Shown: piece after piece, positions 7,122-56,521 of the stretch
How positions within the stretch are numbered: the first letter of the stretch is position 1
Layout: each line of letters begins with the position of its first letter
Assembly (NCBI RefSeq): GCF_003385235.1
Contig: NZ_PQIA01000011.1
Coordinates: 1 to 64,000 of the forward strand
DNA: 64,000 nt
From: Amycolatopsis circi
GTDB taxonomy: Bacteria > Actinomycetota > Actinomycetes > Mycobacteriales > Pseudonocardiaceae
Reading direction: 5' to 3'
Notes under the pieces: generated by a model
What the model was told of the DNA's origin: nothing
The model's input: only the letters and a program-made list of their open reading frames with translations
Database searches by the model: none
Position numbers and translations under genes: made by a program

Positions 7122-7172
7122 CCGTGAGGGGAACCTTCAGGGACTCAGAGTCCCTGAAGGTTCCCCTCACGG
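7122..7172. repeat. Family B intergenic palindrome, copy 1
   Basis: A perfect inverted repeat with 25-bp arms (7122-7146 and 7148-7172) around a single A. The arm begins CCGTGAGGGGAACCTTCAGG. It lies between two divergent genes, so it is not an ordinary 3'-end terminator. A second copy with the same arm length and spacer is at 36944-36994. The arms differ at six positions and every difference is compensated on the other arm. Confidence 0.92.
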
Positions 7173-17393: not shown

Positions 17394-20300
17394 TCACGGA
17401 CTGACCTTCGTCGTCGTGGTGGCCTCCTTGGCGACCGGACGGCCGGTCTGGTCCGTTGCCGTCGCGGTGGTCGTCGTGGTCACGTCCGCGCGAGCCGAGA
17501 GCGTGCAGGCGCGGGTGACCTGCTCGCCAGGGCCCAGCTGGGTGACGGTGAACGAGCAGGCCGGGTCGGCGTCGCGAACGGTCACGTCGTGCAAGGGCGC
17601 GTCGCCGGTGTTGCGGAGGGTGCTCACGTACGTCACCGGGTCGCCCGGCCGGATCGGCTGCTGCAGGTAGTCGCGGCGCAGGTCCAGTGCCGGATGAATG
17701 ACCGCGAAGTCCGCTTTCCCGGTCGCGGTGACCGGCGGGCCCCACGGTGCGGCCGCGGTCGCGGTTGCCGGGGCGGCGGTTGCCGGAGCCACGCACTGGT
17801 AGCGCTGGGTTCCGCCGACCGGCAACTCGGCGAAGGTGCGGCCGCAGGCGGGGTCAGTCGCCCGGACGTCGTGCAGCGGCTGGTCGCCGGTGTTGGTCAG
17901 CACGACCTCGAACGGCACCGAGTCGTCCGCTCGATACGCGCTGCTGGCGGCGTGCTTGGCGACGGTAAACGCGGGCTTCTTCACCTTGAACGACGCCTGG
18001 CCGGAGGCGCTCACTGTTCGCTGCGTCGGGTCGGTGCCGGTCACCTTCGCGGTGTTCGTGAACCCGGTCGCGCCCGCGGTGATCGTGCACTGGTACTCGA
18101 TTTGGGCGTCCGGAGCCAGGCTCGGGATCTGGTGCGCACAAGCCGGGGTGCGATCATCCACAACGGACACCGCGGTCAGCGGGACGTCGCCGACGTTGCG
18201 GACCAGCAGCGAGAAGGTGACCTTGTCGCCCTGGCGCACCTCGTAGGGCTGGGCGTCCTTCATGATCGCGAGTTCCGGGTGGATTACGTCGATCTTCGCC
18301 GAGCCGGACGCGGTGACCGGGCGGTTCGTCGGGTCGGTTCCGGTCAGGGTCGCGAGGATGGTGAAGTCGTCCGGTTTGGCCTTCACCGTGCACTGGTAGC
18401 TCTGCGCGGCACCGGGTTCGAGGCGGTCGAACTTCGTCGGGCAGCCGGGATCGTTGCTGGTCACCGCGGTGAGCGGGACGTCGCCGGTGTTGGTGACGGC
18501 GACCGTCACGGTGAGGGCGTCGCCAGCCCGTGCGACGGTCGGGTTCGACGAGGTCATCACAGTGAGCGCGGGGTGGATGACGTCGATGTGCGCGTCGGCG
18601 GACGCGGTGAGCGGCGGGCCGACCGGCGGAGTGCCGGTCGCGTGCGCGGTGCTGACCGTGTCGTCGGCCGGGGCGGGGATGGTGCAGTCGTAGGTCTTGT
18701 TCGCCTTCGGCGCGAGGGTGTCGAGAGCCTTCGCGCACGGGCCTTGGTCGGTGACCTTGACGGCGGTCAGCGGGGCGTCGCCGGTATTGGTGACCGTGAT
18801 GGTGAAGGTGACCGGATCGCCTGCGCGGAAGGGACCGCCGTGGACGGTCTTCGTCAGCGCCAAACCTGGGTGCACGACGGTGAACGCAGCGTCCGCCGTG
18901 GCGGTTACCGTGCCGCCGAGCGGGTCTGCGGCGGTCACCTTAGTGGTGTTCGAGTAGCCGTCCGGTCCGGCTTTGGCGGTGCAGGTGTAGTGCTGTTCTT
19001 CTCCTGCCGCCAGGGCGGGGAAGTCGCGGGCGCAGTCCGGCGTGTTTTGGTCCACAATGGACACCTTGGTCAGCGGGACGTCTCCGCTGTTGCGCACGGT
19101 GACGGTGAAGGTGACTTGGTCACCCTCGCGCACCTGCGTCGGCGCGACGGTCTGAGTGATCTGGACGGCAGGGTGGATGACGTCGACGTGCGCGCTCGCG
19201 TTTGCGTTGACCGGACGGCTGGACGGATCGGTGCCGGTGACGGTCGCGTCGCTGATGAGGTCGTCGGTTGTGGGATGAGTGCAGGTGTAGGTCTGTTTTG
19301 CCTGTGGGGCAAGGGTTCCCAGCCGCTTCGCACATTCTGGGACGGAGGCGTCGGCGACCTGGGTGTCGTGGAGTTCGGTGTCGCCAGCATTGGTCACGGT
19401 CAGAGCGAACGTCGCGGGCTCGCCTGGGTGCACGACGATCGGTGCCGCACTTTGCGCGAGCGTGATGAGCGGATGGATCACGTCGATTGCCGCTTCAGTC
19501 GCCGCTGTCACCGGTGCACCGACCGGCGGTTTCGCGGTGACCTGCAGTGCTTCGGTCACGTCGGCGCCCGGCGCGGTCGTGGCGCAGTCGAGCGTCCAGT
19601 TGGCTCCGGGGGCGAGTGTGTCGTGTTGCTGCGTACAGCCTTCGGCGCGGGCCATCGACGTGACGGCCAGTCCGGTGAGCGGCACGTCGCCGGTGTTCGC
19701 CACGATCACGTGCACTGCAACGGCGTCGTTCTCGCGGAACGGCCCGCCTTGGACTGTCGCGGTCATGGTCACCGCTGGGTGCTGAACGGTGAATGCCGCG
19801 CTCGCCTTCGCGGTTACTGGACGTCCGGTCGGGTCGGCACCGGTTACGGTCAGGTCGTTCGCGAAGCCCTGCGTTCCGGCGACCGTGGTGCAGGTGAAGG
19901 TCTGTTTACCTTGCGCAGCAATGGTTCCGATGGCCCGAGCGCATTCCGCGACACGGTCGTCTGCCACTGCGACGTCATGCAGCTCGGCGTCACCCGTGTT
20001 GCTTACCGTGACCGTGAACGTGACACGGTCCCCCTCGCGCACCTGCGAAGGCGCGGCGGCAGCGCTGGCTTCCAGCGCCGGGTGAACCACGTCGACCCGC
20101 GCCTCCGCGGTTGCGCGCTGTGTTGTTCCGAGCTGATCTTTGCCAGTCGCGACAACGGTATTGGTCACGTCGTCCGCCCGGGCTAACTGTTCGCACTTGT
20201 ACGTCTCGACCGCGTTGGGGGCCAGGGTGCCGAATTCGCGGACACAACCGGGCACGCTGTCGTCAGCTACCGCGACGGCGTCGAGCGGCACGTCGCCAGG

Positions 20301-21389
20301 GTTGCGCACCGTGACCGTGAAGGCGACGCGGTCCCCTTCACGCACCTGCGCGGGGGAGGCCGCCGCGGTGACCGTCAGGGCCGGGTGGATCACTGTGACC
20401 GTCGCCGAGGACTTGGCCGTGACCGGTCGGCCGGTTCCGTCCGTACCCGTGGCGGTGATGCTGTTTGTCGTGGTCTGCGCGGGTTTCGCGGTGCAGGAGT
20501 AGGTCTGCTGAGTCCCAGGCGTGAGTACGCCGAAGGACCGCGAGCACGCCGGATTCGTGTCGTCAGTGACGTCGACCGGATTGAGGGGACTGTCGCCGGT
20601 ATTGCGCACGGTGACATTCCAGGTGACCTGGTCCCCGCCGTGCACCACAGGCGGGACGGCCGCCTTCGAGACGGACAGTGCAGGCGTGATGAGGGGGACT
20701 TTCGCGTCCGCAGACGAGGTGACGACCTTGCCGAGCGGGTCGATCCCCTTCACGGTCGCGCTGGCTCCGTCCGGCAGCGGAACCGTCGCCGCGCAAGTGC
20801 CCACCACCGATTGCCCCGGCGCGAGAGACCCGACGGCGCGAGCGCACGAGGGGACCGCTGGGTCGCCGATGGTCACGTCACGCAGCGGAACGTCGCCGGT
20901 ATTGATGGTCTTGAGCGTGAAGGTCGCCTGATCGCCAGCACGATAAGCCGGTTTGTCGACCTGCTGACTCAACGTCACGGCCGGACGGAGGACATCGACG
21001 TTGCTGCCCGCCGAAGCCGAGAACTGTTCCCCGCCGGAGCCAACGCCAGTCACCTTGACCGTCGAGACGAAGCCCTTTTCGGGCGCGGCGAACGTGCATT
21101 GATAGCGCGTGCTGGCCCCCGGAGCGAGGGTCCCGATCTTCTTGCCGCACTGCGGGTTCTGCTCGTCCACGGCGTCCACATCGGACACTGGGCCGGAAGC
21201 CGGGTTCGTCACGCTCACCGTGAACGTCACCTGGTCGCCAGCGTGTACCCGATGCGGTGCGGCGACCGCCGTGACCTGCAGATCCTGCGTCGGCCGGGCA
21301 GGTGCCGCCGTCGCGGCGTGCGCGGCCGGGGGCAGCAGGGTGGCCATCAGGCCAAGGACTAAGAGCAGACGTTTCCCGGCCGAAACCAT
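17394..21389 (-). CDS. Giant secreted protein with 13 Ig-like DUF11/CARDB-type repeats
   Basis: A 1331-residue protein with a clear signal peptide (MVSAGKRLLLVLGLMATLLP, cleavage after AHA). The rest is 13 tandem repeats of about 93-101 residues. Each has the pattern PA.VR.GD.VTFTVTV.NTGD.PL..V.V.D, a first Cys, LAPG, then YxC, and ends VTAxAxVxVIHP. The two cysteines per repeat suggest one disulfide per domain. There is no LPxTG motif or C-terminal membrane helix, so it is probably released or held non-covalently. Repeats fall into three subtypes in the order A-B-C (see findings). Function is unknown: a surface stalk, adhesin or matrix protein. A marR gene ends 64 bases upstream of its start, and rph is divergent at its 3' side. 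Confidence 0.85.
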   Translation of the reverse strand: MVSAGKRLLLVLGLMATLLPPAAHAATAAPARPTQDLQVTAVAAPHRVHAGDQVTFTVSVTNPASGPVSDVDAVDEQNPQCGKKIGTLAPGASTRYQCTFAAPEKGFVSTVKVTGVGSGGEQFSASAGSNVDVLRPAVTLSQQVDKPAYRAGDQATFTLKTINTGDVPLRDVTIGDPAVPSCARAVGSLAPGQSVVGTCAATVPLPDGASATVKGIDPLGKVVTSSADAKVPLITPALSVSKAAVPPVVHGGDQVTWNVTVRNTGDSPLNPVDVTDDTNPACSRSFGVLTPGTQQTYSCTAKPAQTTTNSITATGTDGTGRPVTAKSSATVTVIHPALTVTAAASPAQVREGDRVAFTVTVRNPGDVPLDAVAVADDSVPGCVREFGTLAPNAVETYKCEQLARADDVTNTVVATGKDQLGTTQRATAEARVDVVHPALEASAAAAPSQVREGDRVTFTVTVSNTGDAELHDVAVADDRVAECARAIGTIAAQGKQTFTCTTVAGTQGFANDLTVTGADPTGRPVTAKASAAFTVQHPAVTMTATVQGGPFRENDAVAVHVIVANTGDVPLTGLAVTSMARAEGCTQQHDTLAPGANWTLDCATTAPGADVTEALQVTAKPPVGAPVTAATEAAIDVIHPLITLAQSAAPIVVHPGEPATFALTVTNAGDTELHDTQVADASVPECAKRLGTLAPQAKQTYTCTHPTTDDLISDATVTGTDPSSRPVNANASAHVDVIHPAVQITQTVAPTQVREGDQVTFTVTVRNSGDVPLTKVSIVDQNTPDCARDFPALAAGEEQHYTCTAKAGPDGYSNTTKVTAADPLGGTVTATADAAFTVVHPGLALTKTVHGGPFRAGDPVTFTITVTNTGDAPLTAVKVTDQGPCAKALDTLAPKANKTYDCTIPAPADDTVSTAHATGTPPVGPPLTASADAHIDVIHPALTVMTSSNPTVARAGDALTVTVAVTNTGDVPLTAVTSNDPGCPTKFDRLEPGAAQSYQCTVKAKPDDFTILATLTGTDPTNRPVTASGSAKIDVIHPELAIMKDAQPYEVRQGDKVTFSLLVRNVGDVPLTAVSVVDDRTPACAHQIPSLAPDAQIEYQCTITAGATGFTNTAKVTGTDPTQRTVSASGQASFKVKKPAFTVAKHAASSAYRADDSVPFEVVLTNTGDQPLHDVRATDPACGRTFAELPVGGTQRYQCVAPATAAPATATAAAPWGPPVTATGKADFAVIHPALDLRRDYLQQPIRPGDPVTYVSTLRNTGDAPLHDVTVRDADPACSFTVTQLGPGEQVTRACTLSARADVTTTTTATATDQTGRPVAKEATTTTKVSP

Positions 21390-36943: not shown

Positions 36944-36994
36944 CCGTGAAGGACTCCTTGAGGGAATCAGATTCCCTCAAGGAGTCCTTCACGG
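36944..36994. repeat. Family B intergenic palindrome, copy 2
   Basis: A perfect inverted repeat with 25-bp arms (36944-36968, 36970-36994) around one A, the same design as 7122-7172. The arm begins CCGTGAAGGACTCCTTGAGG. It starts 7 bases after the 5'-nucleotidase stop codon and is followed by CTTTT, so here it can act as a terminator. Confidence 0.92.
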
Positions 36995-39570: not shown

Positions 39571-41433
39571 CTACTGACCGGTTGCCGGAGCCTTGGGCTC
39601 GCCCGCCATCATCAGGCTCAGCCCCTTCCCTCCTCCGCTCTCGAAACGCACCGGGACGCCCCAGTCCTGCCGGGTGATCCGGCACGCCGGGTGCTCGCCG
39701 CCGTCATCGCAGCTCGCGGCCTGCGCCACTACCTGCAAGACACCTTCGGTCGCGCCTTCGGCGAACTTGATACGCCGCACGAGGTCAGTTCCGACCCCGG
39801 CTCCGTCGGCGAGCAGTTCCGGCGGCGACGCGGTGATCTCCAGCCGCGTCGAGGGCCCGTAGCGCTCGTCGAGCTTCTCGCCGGGCGGCGGGGTGAAGAC
39901 AACGGAAAATTCGACTTCGCCGGGCGCGAGCACGGTCGGCGGACGCTGTACGGCCTGACGCTTGCCTGCGACGGCGGTCGCCTGGCCATTGCCCCCGAGC
40001 GGGGTAACCCGGTTGCCCGCCGATTCCACGACGTACAGCTCGCCGTCGTGGCGCACCAGGCCTTGGGGTTCGGCGAACCCAGTCGCAAGTGTCGTGACGT
40101 CGCGGGTGAACGGGTCGTAGCGGCGGATCGCGCCGTTGTAGGTGTCGGCGATCGCGACCCGGCCGTCGGACAGCACGGCGAGGCCGAGCGGATGCTGCAG
40201 CAGCGCCTGGTCGGACGGGCCGTCGGCGTGGCCGAAGGTGAACAGGTCCGTGCCGACCGCGGTGTGCACGGTGAACGACTCGTCCGCCGGTTCGATCCAG
40301 CGCAGGGCCGAGGTTTCCGCGTCGACGAACCAGAGTTTCTGCCCGTCCACGGCGAATCCGGACGGCTGGGCGAAGAACGCCTCGTGCACGTCGCCGTCGC
40401 GCAGGCCCTCGACGGTGGTGCCGGCGAACCGGCGGATGGTGCCCGAGGACGGGTCGAACACGCTCAGCGTGTGGTTTCCGGCCATCGCGACGACCACGCC
40501 GCCCGCGGGGGCCCACCACGCGACGTCCCACGGGCTGGTGAGGTCGGTGTCCAGCGCCTTGCCGGTGTCGGTGCCGTCGCGCCACTGTTTCCCGGTTCCG
40601 GCAACGGTTTTCACTTCGCCGGTGTTGAGGTCCAAGCCGCGCAGGCGATGCCCGGCGGTGTCGGCGACGATCGCGTGATACCCGGCGCGCTCGGCGACTT
40701 CGTTGGGCAGCAAGGCGATTCCGGACGGTTCGGCGAACTGGGCCAGGTCGAACGGCCCGTCCTGCGTTCCGCGAACCCCGCTGCCGAAGCGCCGGATGAC
40801 GGTTTCGCCGTCGGAAGCGAACTCGACGATCGAGTGATGTCCGGTGTCCGCCACCAGAATCCGGCCACCCGCAGTGACGACCGCCTTACTGGGGAAACGC
40901 AGTTCGGTGCGCTGTTCCTCGACCGGCACGTACGGGCTGCCGCCGCGCCGGAGCGTGCCCTTGGCGTCATGCTTCGCGACGAGGTCGGCGATCACGCGGC
41001 GTAACGCCTCGCCGTGGCCCTCACCGGCCGCGACATGCACGACGTAACCCTCGGGGTCCACGACGACCAGCGTCGGCCAGGCCCGCACGGCGTACTGCGA
41101 CCACAGCTCCATCTTCGGGTCGTTGACCACCGGATGGTGCACCTCGTACCGGCGCACCGCGGCCTCGATCGACGTGCGCTCGCCCTCGCGGCTGAACTTC
41201 GGCGAGTGCACCCCCACCGTGACCAGGACATCGGCGAATTCCTGTTCCAGCGGACGGAGTTCGTCGAGAACGTGCAGGCAGTTGACGCAGCCGCTGGTCC
41301 AGAAGTCCAGCAGCACCACGCGTCCGCGCAGTTGCGCCAGAGTGAGCCGGCGACCGCCGGTGTTGAGCCAGACGTCGCCGGTCAGCTCGGGCGCGCGTAC
41401 GCGGGCTTGCCGGGCTTGCGGTGAGGAAGTCAC
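39571..41433 (-). CDS. Thioredoxin-fold/NHL-repeat protein (NHLRC2-like)
   Basis: A 620-residue protein. The N-terminal thioredoxin-like domain (about 20-160) has DFWTSGCVNCLHVLDEL with a CVNC active site and the cis-Pro region YAVRAWPTLVVVDPEG. A six-bladed NHL beta-propeller (about 190-500) has blades such as GGRILVADTGHHSIVEF, and GLAVLSDGRVAIADTYNGAI. A C-terminal beta domain follows. The same domain order occurs in NHLRC2. There is no signal peptide, so it should be cytoplasmic; its redox partner is unknown. First gene of the operon with the GroES-like and VanW genes. Confidence 0.88.
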   Translation of the reverse strand: MTSSPQARQARVRAPELTGDVWLNTGGRRLTLAQLRGRVVLLDFWTSGCVNCLHVLDELRPLEQEFADVLVTVGVHSPKFSREGERTSIEAAVRRYEVHHPVVNDPKMELWSQYAVRAWPTLVVVDPEGYVVHVAAGEGHGEALRRVIADLVAKHDAKGTLRRGGSPYVPVEEQRTELRFPSKAVVTAGGRILVADTGHHSIVEFASDGETVIRRFGSGVRGTQDGPFDLAQFAEPSGIALLPNEVAERAGYHAIVADTAGHRLRGLDLNTGEVKTVAGTGKQWRDGTDTGKALDTDLTSPWDVAWWAPAGGVVVAMAGNHTLSVFDPSSGTIRRFAGTTVEGLRDGDVHEAFFAQPSGFAVDGQKLWFVDAETSALRWIEPADESFTVHTAVGTDLFTFGHADGPSDQALLQHPLGLAVLSDGRVAIADTYNGAIRRYDPFTRDVTTLATGFAEPQGLVRHDGELYVVESAGNRVTPLGGNGQATAVAGKRQAVQRPPTVLAPGEVEFSVVFTPPPGEKLDERYGPSTRLEITASPPELLADGAGVGTDLVRRIKFAEGATEGVLQVVAQAASCDDGGEHPACRITRQDWGVPVRFESGGGKGLSLMMAGEPKAPATGQ

Positions 41434-41569
41434 GGGAGGAGTGAACTACATCCGGTCACGCGGTGTTCCGTCAACCACGGCCGGAGAGAAGAACCTCACC
41501 CCGGCGAGGGAGCCCATTCCGGCGAAAAAGGGCGCGCGGACGCGGCGGGGCGCTACGTACGCTTCGGGC

Positions 41570-42142
41570 ATGGCACAAGTTCAGCCGGCCGAAGCCTTCA
41601 CCGTGGAGGAGGCCCGCATCCTGCAGCAGAAACTCGGCGAGCCCTTGCGGCCTGGCCTCACCCCCGCCGAACTGAGCGACGTCGAGGACCAGTTCGGGTT
41701 CACGTTTTCCGACGACCACCGGATTTTCCTCACCGCCGGGGTCCCGGTCGGCGACCGCTGGCCGGATTGGCGCCACGGCGACCCGGACCAGCTGCGCAAA
41801 CGCCTCGACTGGCCGGTCGACGGCGTCCTGTATGACGTGGAGAACAACGACCTGTGGCTTCCCGAATGGGGCACCCGGCCGCGGTCGATGTGCAACGCGC
41901 TCGCGGTCGCCCGGCGGCACCTGGCGACGGTGCCGCAGCTGGTGCCGGTGTGCGGGCACCGGTATCTGCCCGGGACGCCTGGGGAGTCCGGGTATCCGGT
42001 TTTGTCGGTGTATCAGACCGATGTGGTCTATTACGGCTGGGACCTGCGCAGTTACCTGCGGCACGAGTTCGGCGGGGAGCCGCTGGGGGAGGAACCGGCG
42101 GGCGTCCGGGTCGTGGAGTTCTGGTCGCGGTTCGTGGAATGA
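41570..42142 (+). CDS. SMI1/KNR4 (SUKH)-like protein
   Basis: A 190-residue soluble protein. The N-terminal TPAELSDVEDQFGFTFSDDH, then RIFLTAGVPVG, is the typical SUKH start, followed by WPDWRHGDPDQLRKRL and DLWLPEWGTRP. SUKH proteins are frequent immunity proteins or regulators; no toxin gene lies beside it. The ATG at 41570 follows a GC-rich gap without a strong ribosome-binding site. The palindromic element begins one base after its TGA. Confidence 0.8.
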   Translation: MAQVQPAEAFTVEEARILQQKLGEPLRPGLTPAELSDVEDQFGFTFSDDHRIFLTAGVPVGDRWPDWRHGDPDQLRKRLDWPVDGVLYDVENNDLWLPEWGTRPRSMCNALAVARRHLATVPQLVPVCGHRYLPGTPGESGYPVLSVYQTDVVYYGWDLRSYLRHEFGGEPLGEEPAGVRVVEFWSRFVE

Positions 42143-42206
42143 GCTGTGTCTTTGGCGCTGTGTTTGATGGCGCCGGCTTCGCCGTCGCGTGCGGGATCGC
42201 CTTTAA

Positions 42207-42273
42207 GTCGGCGGGTCGGGGAGCACCGCACCCGGCCCGGGGGGCCGTGCACGCTGCTCCCCGACCCGCCGAC
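42207..42273. repeat. Hairpin 1 inside the nested element
   Basis: Perfect 19-bp arms (GTCGGCGGGTCGGGGAGCA, 42207-42225; complement at 42255-42273). The loop contains a 23-base segment (42229-42251) that is found, inverted and unchanged, as the loop of hairpin 2, although the two stems differ in sequence. Confidence 0.9.
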
Positions 42274-42367
42274 GCGATCCCGCCGTTCGGGTCAAGTCGG
42301 CGTCGGACCTGGTTTGACCCAAACCGGCCAAAGACCACCACCCAACCCGACCCGAACGCGGGATCGC

Positions 42368-42436
42368 GTCGGCGTCTGGCGGGAGCGACGTGCACGGCCC
42401 CCCGGGCCGGGTGCGTCGTTCCCGCCAGACGCCGAC
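42368..42436. repeat. Hairpin 2 inside the nested element
   Basis: Arms of 23 bp (42368-42390 and 42414-42436) pair with one G-T wobble. The arm starts GTCGGCGTCTGGCGGGA, related to hairpin 1 only in its first bases. The 23-base loop (42391-42413) is the exact reverse complement of 42229-42251. Confidence 0.9.
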
Positions 42437-42442
42437 TTAAAG

Positions 42443-42524
42443 GCGATCCCGCCGCGACGGCGGAGCCGGCGCCAAAGACACAGCGATCCCGCACGCGACG
42501 GCGGAGCCGGCGCCAAAGACACAG
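42443..42524. repeat. Tandem 41/42-bp direct repeat at the right end of the nested element
   Basis: Copies at 42443-42483 and 42483-42524 share everything from GCGATCCCGC to GCGCCAAAGACACAG, differing by one inserted A. The left end of the element has a truncated version of the same duplication (42144-42157 followed by 42158 onward). This suggests slippage or repeated insertion at the element's border. Confidence 0.88.
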
Positions 42525-42525
42525 A

Positions 42526-44829
42526 TCAGGACTCCCGGCGCAGCATCCGGCTGACGCCCGCCGCGACTGTGGTCGCGAGGATCCAGCCGGACGCGGTGAA
42601 CCCGGCTGCCACCCAGTTGTCCGCGCCGTGCATGTACCAGCGTGACTTGTTGCCGAAGTCGACGATCGGCACCAGCAGGTCGGCGGTGTAGATGACCGGA
42701 TTCCACTGCAGCCCGGAGTCTTGCTGGTTGACGAGGCAACGCGGCCCGCTGGTCATGTAGCGGCCGGTGTGGTCGTTGACGCAGTCGTCCTTGCCGAGGC
42801 CGAACCAGAGGCTGCCCAGCACCAGCAGCGTGAGCAGCCAGCCGAGCGCACGTACCGGACGGAAGCCGTAGCCGACCATCGACCGCTGCAGCCAGCTCCA
42901 CAGCCGGACGCCGGGACCGAAGAACTTGAAGCCCTTGGCGAGTGCTTCGTAGCGGAACTGCTGCTTTCGCAGCGCGACCGTCGAGGCGTGCTCTTCGTTT
43001 CCAGCTGCGCGCAGGGTCGCGGCTAGCTGGTCGTACGGTCCTGGGCGGTAGCCGCGCATTGCCTTGCGGAGCAGGTCGATCCGGTGGTCCAGCGCGTTGT
43101 CGTCGTCGAGCGCGATGCCGTGTTTCAGTGCGTCGTAACGGAAATCCTCGAGTTCGAGTCCGTCGGTGGCTTTCCAGATCTCCTCGTTGTCGGCCAGCGC
43201 ACCGCAATGCGCCCGGCGCAGCCGCACCGACCCCGTCGGCGGCTCGGCGGGAGACAGCACGAACTCGTCCGCGGTGACGTCACTGGCGTCGAGCGCGATG
43301 TCATGCGGCGCAAGCGATCCCAGCTTCGCGCCGTTCATGTCGAGCCGCCTGGCGATCTGCGCCCCGTCGAGGTTCACGCCGCCCTCGGCCAGGAACGGCC
43401 GGTCCTTGTCCTCGGTCAGGACGACGTCGCGCCCGATCCGCGCGGTGCGGATGTCGACGGAGAAACTGCTCGATTTCCGTTGCCCTGGCTCGGTGAGCAA
43501 CGTGCCGAACATGTTCACGCTGCCGCCGATTTCCGCTCCCTGCAGCCGCAGCGTGCCCTGCAGGGTGGCGTCCGTCAGCTGGAAATTCCCGGAGATCTTG
43601 GCTCTGCGCGCGGAAAATACGTCTCGTCCCGGGTGGAGGAACATCGAGTTCCAGGCAAGGAAGTTGCCACCGACCGTGACGTCCGCGAGCCGGAGCTGCC
43701 CGATCGGCACCCGGAGGTTGGTCGCCTCGATGTCGCCGCCGATCGTGGACCCGTCGAGGTGCAGGGCGCGGTCGTAATACGGGGTCGCCCGTCCGCGGAC
43801 CATGGTGATTTCCGCGCCCGCGAGCCTTAACGACCCGCCGATGCGCGCGTTGACCATGCGCAGCGTCCCGAAGGCCCGGAGCCCGTCGGACAACTCGAGA
43901 TTGCCGTCCACCTTCAGCCGATCCGCGATCAACGCCGGTCGCGGATCGAGGTACGGATCCCCGGATTTCCAAGCGTCCACGACGATCGGCCCACGCTGGT
44001 CGACTTGAAGGCGAGCCTCGCGCATGACGATGTCACTGTCCACAGTGGCGCTGGGGAGATAGAGGACTCCCTTGGCGGAGAACCGTTTCCGCTCACTGGC
44101 CGGTCCGTAGTTGTCGACCTCGCACAGCAGACTGCCGCCGATGTGCAACCCGTTGCCGTTGAACGCGAAGCCGTCCGGGTTGTCGAACGTAGCCCCGGAA
44201 AAGTTGACGTTACCGCCGGTGCGCATGCCCGGCAGTCGCACTTCGCCCTTAGCGACCATCCGATACGCCAGCAGGGCACCGGTAATCACCAGCCGGTCGC
44301 CCTGAATCGCCTTCCCGTGCGGATGGCTGATCGTGGTCCTGGTGAGCACGACCGACCCGTCGATCACCGCGTCGGTGAGGTTGACGGCGGCGTTGGGCAT
44401 CCCGCGCTCGCGATCGTCCCCGCGCTGCACGGTCGTGGTCTCAAGCTCGAATTGATCCGGCGCGACCTCGACGACGCTGCGAATCAATCGCACGTCATTC
44501 CGGCTGCGCAAATTACGGGCGCGGAGACCGGGAAGCCAGCATTTCCGGAAAACGAGCCCGAGAAGGGTCGCCTCGCGAACGTCCGGCGGATGCTCGAACC
44601 GGCAGCGTTCGAATTGAAAGAGAAAATTGAGATCGGCGGCGCGCAGGTCGAGCGTGCCGGTGATGTAAGCGTCCTCGACCTGGACGATCGGCGCGTTCGT
44701 GGCCTGCCGTCTCCAGCGGAGGATGCCGCTGGTGCCAGGTTTCAGCAGGTCCGCGGCCTTCACCTCGTACCGCTTGTCGGGAACCCCGGCAAACGGATCA
44801 AGCGGCGGCAAGGTCGTATCGGTCGGCAC
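42526..44829 (-). CDS. Beta-solenoid membrane protein ('membrane-associated oxidoreductase' family)
   Basis: A 767-residue protein. Residues about 45-540 form a long series of short beta repeats of the form GG(S/N)(L/V)xLxGAxI, for example ARIGGSLRLAGAEI, TVGGNFLAW, EIGGSVNMFGTLL, GAQIARRLDMNGAKL. They probably fold as a right-handed beta-helix like pentapeptide or bactofilin proteins. A helical segment (about 560-650) and two membrane helices follow (ALGWLLTLLVLGSLWFGLG; the last ~25 residues before RRES). The loop between them has two Cys and IYTADLLVPIVDFGNKSRW. Streptomyces homologues carry the oxidoreductase label, but I see no cofactor motif supporting it. Confidence 0.78.
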   Translation of the reverse strand: MPTDTTLPPLDPFAGVPDKRYEVKAADLLKPGTSGILRWRRQATNAPIVQVEDAYITGTLDLRAADLNFLFQFERCRFEHPPDVREATLLGLVFRKCWLPGLRARNLRSRNDVRLIRSVVEVAPDQFELETTTVQRGDDRERGMPNAAVNLTDAVIDGSVVLTRTTISHPHGKAIQGDRLVITGALLAYRMVAKGEVRLPGMRTGGNVNFSGATFDNPDGFAFNGNGLHIGGSLLCEVDNYGPASERKRFSAKGVLYLPSATVDSDIVMREARLQVDQRGPIVVDAWKSGDPYLDPRPALIADRLKVDGNLELSDGLRAFGTLRMVNARIGGSLRLAGAEITMVRGRATPYYDRALHLDGSTIGGDIEATNLRVPIGQLRLADVTVGGNFLAWNSMFLHPGRDVFSARRAKISGNFQLTDATLQGTLRLQGAEIGGSVNMFGTLLTEPGQRKSSSFSVDIRTARIGRDVVLTEDKDRPFLAEGGVNLDGAQIARRLDMNGAKLGSLAPHDIALDASDVTADEFVLSPAEPPTGSVRLRRAHCGALADNEEIWKATDGLELEDFRYDALKHGIALDDDNALDHRIDLLRKAMRGYRPGPYDQLAATLRAAGNEEHASTVALRKQQFRYEALAKGFKFFGPGVRLWSWLQRSMVGYGFRPVRALGWLLTLLVLGSLWFGLGKDDCVNDHTGRYMTSGPRCLVNQQDSGLQWNPVIYTADLLVPIVDFGNKSRWYMHGADNWVAAGFTASGWILATTVAAGVSRMLRRES

Positions 44830-54686: not shown

Positions 54687-54734
54687 CCTCGTGAGTGCCT
54701 ATCCCGGTTAGAACCGGCATAGGCACTCACGAGG
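54687..54734. repeat. Family A intergenic palindrome, copy 2
   Basis: Arms of 23 bp (54687-54709, 54712-54734; start CCTCGTGAGTGCCTAT) pair at 22 positions with one C-C mismatch; spacer AG. It sits between the convergent stops of the binding-protein and M20 peptidase genes, where it can terminate both. Confidence 0.88.
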
Positions 54735-56207: not shown

Positions 56208-56251
56208 TCGTGAGTGCCTATCGCGGTTCTAACCGCGATAGGCACTCACGA
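56208..56251. repeat. Family A intergenic palindrome, copy 3
   Basis: Perfect 21-bp arms (56208-56228 and 56231-56251; core GTGAGTGCCTATCGCGGTT) around the spacer CT. The spacer is the complement of AG in copies 1 and 2, so this copy is in the opposite orientation. It lies in a divergent promoter region upstream of both the M20 gene and the E1alpha gene, where a terminator would not be expected. Confidence 0.9.
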
Positions 56252-56521
56252 GGGCAGGTAGGACGCGGGATGGCCGCCCGACCATCGCCTCTCCCATACT
56301 CGGGCTTCCAAACGTTTTCCCTGTTCAGCGAGGTTTTCTCAGCAACAAATCAGCAACTCCCGCTCTCCATCGGAGCAATTCTCGTGCCAGGATGTGGCCA
56401 CGAACCGTCAACGCCGACGATGACCGGGAGCCTCGGACCCGAGGAGCCGGTCCCCGCCGGTGCAGTCGCTGTGGCCGCCACAAGCGGCCGTCAGAGGCAC
56501 CGACACCGAGGAGAACAGCTC
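56252..56521. other. Long leader upstream of the 2-oxoacid dehydrogenase operon
   Basis: About 270 bases without a convincing gene. The first half is less GC-rich and includes the partly repeated words CAGCAACAAATCAGCAACTC near 56341-56360, a possible promoter or regulator-binding region. The sequence ends with GAGGAGAAC before the E1alpha ATG. I cannot assign an operator or attenuator. Confidence 0.4.

Follow-up and report, generated by a model that had tools for sequence, protein, structure and literature searches.

The window analyzed here is the stretch of 64,000 nucleotides at the start of an Amycolatopsis circi contig, and the locus of interest is the gap between two convergent genes. 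This gap, 42143-42525, is filled completely by two copies of a single dispersed repeat in inverted orientation, and the pair abuts both stop codons (Table 1). The left gene end reads TGA-G-CTGTGTCTTTGGCGC at 42140-42158 on the forward strand and the right gene end reads TGA-T-CTGTGTCTTTGGCGC at 42528-42510 on the reverse strand, so that the TGA-N-CTGTGTCTTTGGCGC arrangement reported in an initial annotation of this DNA is present at both ends. The same annotation had described the two modules as inverted copies whose stems have diverged while each remains self-complementary, with a duplicated unit at the right border. All of this is borne out by the sequence, the border duplication being a 41-bp unit repeated at a step of 41 with 31 of 31 nucleotides identical. 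The 23-nt loop that it had called invariant is exact within the window, 42229-42251 being the complement of 42391-42413, but among copies elsewhere it is the apex of one subfamily only: the segment is exact in 7 of 74 parsed copies, and a different CCTTCGGC apex occurs in 14 of 74. Its stem lengths of 19 and 23 bp hold for module 1, where uninterrupted Watson-Crick pairing above the bulge spans 19 bp, and not for module 2, where it spans 17 bp; both modules have 10 basal pairs in addition. Folding of the 383-nt strand yields -194 kcal/mol, whereas 100 shuffled sequences average -102 (sd 3.8; z -24.7), a difference too large for the structure to be due to chance. There is no T-tract after the large hairpins in the window, and one weak terminator match lies at 42146-42158.

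Table 1. Features of the convergent gap and its flanking genes, in window coordinates.
Feature	Coordinates	Strand	Remarks
Left flanking gene	41570..42142	+	TGA 42140-42142; start inferred; no Pfam family
Partial extra leader CTGTGTCTTTGGCGC of module 1	42144..42158	+	one base past the left stop codon
Module 1, leader CTGTGTTTGATG and two hairpins	42158..42300	+	covariance-model match 42151-42295
Module 1 small hairpin P1	42170..42188	+	8 positions, one C.T mismatch among them; TTC triloop
Module 1 large hairpin	42191..42283	+	basal stem 42191-42200/42274-42283
Module 1 large hairpin, 5'-side bulge CTTTAA	42201-42206	+	
Module 1 large hairpin, upper stem	42207-42273	+	apex segment 42229-42251
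Spacer between modules 1 and 2	42296..42345		50 nt
Module 2, inverted relative to module 1	42346..42491	-	large hairpin 42358-42452; bulge 42437-42442
Module 2 P1 and leader	P1 42454-42472; leader 42469-42483	-	
Tandem additional leader and P1 copy	42483..42524	-	41-bp step; stops one base short of the right gene's stop codon
Right flanking gene, pentapeptide-repeat protein	42526..44829	-	PF13576; stop codon 42526-42528

Copies of the repeat were taken from the same genome and twelve relatives, and an arm parser resolved 74 of 82 near-full copies and failed on 8. Two mis-parsed copies (L127 and L205) and the second copy at L139 were excluded to give an Amycolatopsis alignment (A1) of 71 rows; loci L083-L088, from named genomes, were excluded as duplicates. 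The unit is approximately 145 nt long and consists of a leader, an 8-pair hairpin (P1) with a UYC triloop, and a long bulged hairpin. The leader consensus is CTGTGTYTTTGG / CTGTGTTTGATGG, and typical variants among the parsed copies are CTGTGTTTTTGG, CTGTGTTTGATGG or CTGTGTCTTTGG. A short spacer separates P1 from P2, the 10-bp basal stem of the large hairpin, in which GCGGGATCGC pairs with GCGATCCCGC. Above it, a bulge of 6 nt interrupts the 5' arm alone (CTTTAA in 25/74 copies, CTTCAA in 18/74), the upper stem then runs for a median of 22 pairs without a break, and a short tail ends the unit. The leader and P1 are found on the 5' side only; single copies are asymmetric and therefore lack terminal inverted repeats of the MITE type. 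In some copies the leader-P1 unit is doubled or tripled in tandem, and in four (L091, L111, L130 and L144) the large hairpin has been cleanly lost in the same way, which is what slippage across a palindrome predicts.

The repeat is abundant and widely distributed. A DNA search of its own genome, with 40 of 157 candidates scored, returned 52 matches at no fewer than 25 distinct places, in support of the initially proposed non-autonomous, multi-copy, palindromic, REP-like element. Since 4-10 candidates were scored per genome in the multi-genome searches, their counts are lower bounds. DNA search matched 20 of 80 Amycolatopsis genomes. A covariance model built from the 71 Amycolatopsis copies matched 57 of 297 Pseudonocardiaceae genomes, spread over 11 of 46 genera, at E<=0.01; four genomes and three genera among them depend on E values of 0.003-0.009, and 53 genomes in 8 genera remain at E<=0.001. 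Six copy-rich genomes that were searched again gave 14, 39, 64, 31, 41 and 86 matches. A search across the order matched 17 of 397 genomes. Of these, 7 belong to a single genus in a second bacterial family, where the leader and P1 are recognizable and the P2 sequence is quite different, with pairing kept. Many element sites are orthologous and common to several species. A single scan of named genomes with a too-strict pattern found 6 loci, all in Amycolatopsis, while one exact pattern run on viral contigs and one distant DNA search of plasmids each gave 0 matches. In Rfam 15, the best match for window positions 41000-44000 at E up to 10 was 0.1, none near the gathering score, and 12 other loci gave no match at the gathering score. 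No description of the repeat family was found in Rfam or among the open-licence papers listed by the searches, and this stop-codon-anchored hairpin family is apparently uncatalogued.

Most copies are single rather than dimeric. Among 19 neighboring pairs less than 400 bp apart, a number inflated by the deliberate fetching of clustered loci, which leaves orientation unaffected, 11 have their leaders outside, 0 have their leaders inside and 8 are on the same strand. The 11 leaders-outside rows correspond to 9 distinct sites, with the window site contributing three rows from three species, and the 8 same-strand rows include one single interrupted copy. When both members are longer than 100 nt, 8 distinct leaders-outside sites stand against 0 (sign test p 0.008). 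The partners in the eight leaders-outside pairs that were compared are 70-82% identical, and the dimers are therefore not perfect palindromes. Elsewhere in the own genome, contig C27 carries five copies in approximately 24 kb (5123-28806; L042, L043 and L044), including a leaders-outside pair 187 bp apart, and copies lie within approximately 220 bp of the ends of contigs C8, C18 and C40. Repeats of this type may break assemblies.

Gene context was assigned from gene calls made by a rough codon-usage script. The 91 Amycolatopsis copies comprise 29 between convergent, 33 between tandem and 19 between divergent genes, with 8 not typed and 2 inside a gene. In other Pseudonocardiaceae genera, 82 copies divide into 23 convergent, 36 tandem, 20 divergent and 3 inside a gene, against a background of 23 convergent, 117 tandem and 29 divergent gene pairs at any distance (n=169); 18 copies from the second bacterial family include 8 convergent, 7 tandem and 3 divergent. 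Convergent gaps hold 29 of 81 typed Amycolatopsis copies as compared with 5 of 110 other gaps of at least 100 bp, a comparison that is biased because the element widens its own gap.

The clearest signal concerns the position of the element's 5' end relative to stop codons. Where this end points toward a gene 3' end, 24 of 46 Amycolatopsis copies (11 of 20 distinct sites) and 22 of 36 copies from other genera have it between -12 and +10 bp from the stop. The same interval contains the element 3' end facing a gene 3' end in 5/51 Amycolatopsis and 7/46 other-genus copies, and the 5' end facing a gene start in 6/41 and 5/43; for other genera, anchoring differs from these two controls with Fisher p values of 2e-5 and 4e-6. 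In the second bacterial family, the leader lies within -10 to +5 of a stop in 10 of 13 copies so oriented, with sites shared between copies counted separately. The stop codon is often inside the leader, at positions 2-4 (CTGA) or 4-6 (CTGTAA, CTGTGA), and it is also placed at positions 6-8 or 8-10 (TTTGA, TTTAA). These counts against controls support the initial claim of anchoring at stop codons, as far as the 5' end is concerned, and we have high confidence that the repeat family is real and anchored as described. The wider claim that the element targets gene 3' ends holds only in part, as the 5' end adjoins a gene start in about half of the copies. In 79 copies from other Pseudonocardiaceae, 36 have the 5' end and 46 the 3' end toward a gene 3' end. 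Stop-like triplets are not enriched at the junctions of copies that face gene starts, which leaves the notion that any TGA serves as the target without support. The leader is 5-6 bp from a start codon in L036 and L106 and approximately 5 bp from the called start of an htpG-like gene in L293. Several copies come as close as 4-12 bp to a called start; the repeat would then have to contain any promoter or ribosome site, and the genes concerned are possibly leaderless.

Comparison of orthologous sites shows both presence and absence of the element. At the window site it is present in the own genome, G048, G071 and G035, and a 477-bp gap occupies its place in G032, G017, G015, G045 and G009. The G032 gap, which is bounded by the same two stop codons, codes for a Polyketide_cyc2 (SRPBCC-type) protein, and the gaps of the other four are close to it in sequence. 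The segment is inverted in G048 and G035, and most of one module has been lost in G071 and in G035. Three further orthologous sites were compared in 17 genomes. At one, the leader directly abuts the native stop in G048, G035, G017 and G009 and approximately 30-80 bp away in the own genome and G071; at the next, it is flush in the own genome, G048 and G017 and approximately 30-80 bp away in G035, G071 and G009. At the last, it is flush in the own genome, G035 and G009, while in G048 the element is inverted and flush with the opposite gene, and in G071 the opposite gene reads into it. The fact that one site can be flush in some species and approximately 30-80 bp off in others speaks against strict anchoring. 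Of 32 cases in which a genome is free of the element at one of these three sites, 21 have a hairpin scoring at least 10 no more than 150 bp away (5/10, 9/11 and 7/11 by site), and some of these hairpins belong to other palindrome families. Since element-free relatives mostly possess such a terminator-like hairpin, the element tends to replace a native 3'-end hairpin. At L139 of G017, viewed against the L143 entry of G015, two copies 330 bp apart have 102 bp of 3' flank in common at 80% identity; this looks like ectopic gene conversion or duplication, with conversion the simplest account. One comparison by eye at this place, of an empty site (G015) with a hairpin-less copy (G035), revealed no target duplication, and the compared sites included no recent empty/occupied pair with intact ends. 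With many sites common to several species, vertical descent and gene conversion could account for much of the distribution in Amycolatopsis.

Other repeats were seen alongside the element. One palindrome family (CTCGTGAGTG...GGTTAGAACC...CACTCACGAG) occurs in the window at 101-150, 54687-54732 and 56208-56253, and G046 and G068 carry a palindrome of this type at a gene end where others carry the stop-codon element. Another (CCGTGAGGGG...GACTC/GAGTC...CCCCTCACGG), with perfect 25-bp arms and 1 nt between them, occurs at 7122-7172 and 36944-36994. By eye, one of its members lies within the large-hairpin region of an element copy in the own genome (L047), and in G032 a member seems to substitute for the large hairpin. 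A tandem repeat array with steps of approximately 300 bp spans 17567-21265 and probably falls within one long repeat-protein gene.

Substitutions in the stems follow the pairing closely. Across the 71 Amycolatopsis copies and 30 pairs, 96.9% of pairs are standard, double changes fill 145 cells against 34.6 in shuffled and at most 24 in slid controls, and 14 of the 30 pairs have changed on both sides. The 83 distinct rows from other genera, whose alignment was fitted to the structure of the model and so favors that structure, contain 354 double-change cells, as compared with 99 after shuffling and no more than 48 after sliding, and only 5 one-sided cells; alignment A3 contains a few antisense self-matches. 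Wobble pairs are rare. In 69 Amycolatopsis copies, with 5 odd copies excluded, there are 1355 Watson-Crick, 5 G-T and 12 A-C pairs. Other genera have 2020, 7 and 9, respectively, when six of the 30 pair columns, misaligned or with a subfamily mismatch, are set aside. All columns together give 2394 Watson-Crick, 7 G-T, 71 A-C and 110 other pairs (total 2582), and these A-C cells fall mostly in a few upper-stem columns with a fixed mismatch in one subfamily. In RNA helices, G-U typically makes up several per cent of pairs. Because RNA helices tolerate G-U and G-T is no commoner than A-C here, the unit under constraint looks like a DNA hairpin. Stem covariation, by almost exclusively Watson-Crick swaps, thus points to constraint on folded DNA and not RNA. 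Watson-Crick-only pairing can also result from template-switch correction of palindromes, for which selection is not needed.

To what extent the repeat belongs with known REP systems can be judged from their transposases and sequence tags. The own genome contains 0 Y1_Tnp (PF01797) domains, as do the copy-rich genomes G254, G344 and G279. Across the family, Y1/RAYT is found in 61 of 297 Pseudonocardiaceae genomes, 14 of 57 element-positive and 47 of 240 element-negative, the Y1 and element counts being taken as referring to the same genomes. In the 72 of 74 copies in which P1 was placed for tag and box tests, a GTAG/GGAG or CGTC-type tag just before P1 occurs in 0/72, and 2/72 have GTAG or GGAG at any position of the 16-nt leader. 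At five loci in other genera, no transposase was recognized by eye beside element clusters, whose neighbors (ribosomal proteins, htpG and TetR-like regulators) we take to be ordinary and varied. With neither a Y1 link nor a REP tag, the behavior is REP-like and the defining marks of the known REP super-families are missing; by these tests the element does not belong to them.

We consider it fairly probable that the two copies in the window form an inverted dimer of a mobile, non-autonomous, REP-like repeat, which is recognized and kept as a folded single-stranded DNA hairpin. A trans-acting enzyme, other than a Y1/RAYT resident in the same genome, would copy the element as a folded strand and join the leader to gene ends next to short matching sequences (CTGA or CTGTRA, for example); the inserted leader may often supply or preserve the stop codon. 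The hairpins could then take over from the native 3'-end hairpin, serving as a terminator in both directions or as an mRNA end, and recombination between copies may yield leader duplications, inversions, gene conversion and hairpin-less remnants. Present or past mobility of the element as folded DNA has our moderate confidence, and its putative terminator action a low to moderate one. The explanation is weakened by the 19/91 and 20/82 copies located between divergent genes, which have no need of a terminator, and by the lack of a T-tract at the large hairpins. A bolder version is possible and on the doubtful side: a hairpin-DNA mobile system driven by something other than Y1/RAYT in two actinobacterial families, in which the leader is inserted at stops and the element becomes the new 3' end, stop included, in place of the resident terminator.

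Selection on RNA rather than mobility would make the element a structured 3'-UTR or terminator module that owes its spread chiefly to vertical descent and gene conversion, and not to transposition. Such a module would explain why the element occupies positions where relatives bear terminator-like hairpins (21/32), the convergent excess (29/81 against 5/110, from biased gaps, and 23/79 against 23/169 in other genera), and the many orthologous sites with one conversion-like case that carries its 3' flank. We nevertheless find it unlikely: wobble is not tolerated, the T-tract is absent, the conserved leader and bulge would be superfluous in a terminator, orientation relative to the gene shows no preference in other Pseudonocardiaceae (36 against 46 of 79), and the copies between divergent genes (19/91 and 20/82) weigh against it as well. 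A REP/REPIN family driven by a RAYT, with the Y1 transposase lost or acting from elsewhere, would share with REPs its hairpins, inverted dimers and extragenic location near stops (PMC3733652, PMC3116915). This REPIN reading, one of those offered initially, has become quite improbable, given that Y1_Tnp is missing from the own genome and the three copy-rich genomes, that Y1 occurs in 14/57 element-positive against 47/240 element-negative genomes, and that no copy has a GTAG/GGAG or CGTC-type tag before P1 (72/72).

The other initial reading, a classical MITE, would be a DDE insertion sequence with an internal deletion, bounded by terminal inverted repeats and flanked by target duplications. It fits a short, multi-copy, non-coding, palindromic element, and the window pair as a whole does have inverted ends; these stem from two copies, however, while single copies are asymmetric and without terminal inverted repeats, and no target duplication was seen in the one by-eye empty/occupied comparison, so that a MITE is very improbable. 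Two unrelated, look-alike convergent terminators, in other words a local accident, have practically no probability when the repeat occupies at least 25 places in the own genome, a copy number that refutes such an accident, and 57/297 genomes of the family. The initial annotation had tied a local accident to a single-copy element, or to copies with neither a preference for stop codons nor a conserved loop; the element is multi-copy and prefers stop codons, and lack of a conserved loop applies in part.

The folded-DNA mobile repeat preferred here would add a large superfamily to REP-like repeats, in a lineage rich in antibiotic producers. It raises the questions of which enzyme moves hairpin repeats without a RAYT and whether new transcription ends are steadily supplied by mobile hairpins.

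Among known systems, integron attC sites are DNA hairpins with conserved unpaired bases and variable stems that start near the stop codon of an ORF, and they carry the boxes R'' (RYYYAAC) and R' (GTTRRRY). The present element is likewise a DNA hairpin near a stop with conserved unpaired bases and variable stems; unlike attC, it is dispersed and forms no cassette arrays. The R'' and R' pair occurs in 0/72 copies and R' alone in 14/72, which speaks against attC identity. MIRU of Mycobacterium tuberculosis are tandem, coding-compatible units at DTGA sites and not long hairpins. They share with our element the character of a short actinobacterial repeat on stop codons and differ from it in the lack of long hairpins. 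BOX, RUP and SPRITE are modular stem-loop repeats with one module in variable number and with repeats nested in repeats. The element resembles them in its modular stem-loops, variable module number and nesting, and is unrelated to them in sequence and host; we know of no stop-codon anchoring of one end for BOX. The three are named as pneumococcal elements in PMC10969869.

The closest comparison is with REPs and REPINs of the GTAG and CGTC super-families (Di Nocera 2013, PMC3733652; Bertels and Rainey 2011, PMC3116915), which are dispersed extragenic hairpins, often in inverted dimers, near or overlapping gene ends, and whose GTAG termini often supply the stop codon of the flanking ORF (PMC3733652). 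The hosts here are Pseudonocardiaceae and one other actinobacterial genus, neither of which a term search of the main text of PMC3733652 returned. In common with REPs and REPINs, the element is multi-copy and extragenic, has a palindromic core, forms inverted dimers of non-identical units and lies near gene ends. Unlike these repeats of 20-40 bp, its unit is approximately 145 nt long with two hairpins and a long near-perfect stem, and it has no GTAG/CGTC tag and no Y1/RAYT link. To our knowledge, its stop-codon anchor is sharper and its Watson-Crick covariation stricter than in REPs. The family is best read as a new superfamily, larger than known REPs and structurally distinct from them, with REP-like behavior.
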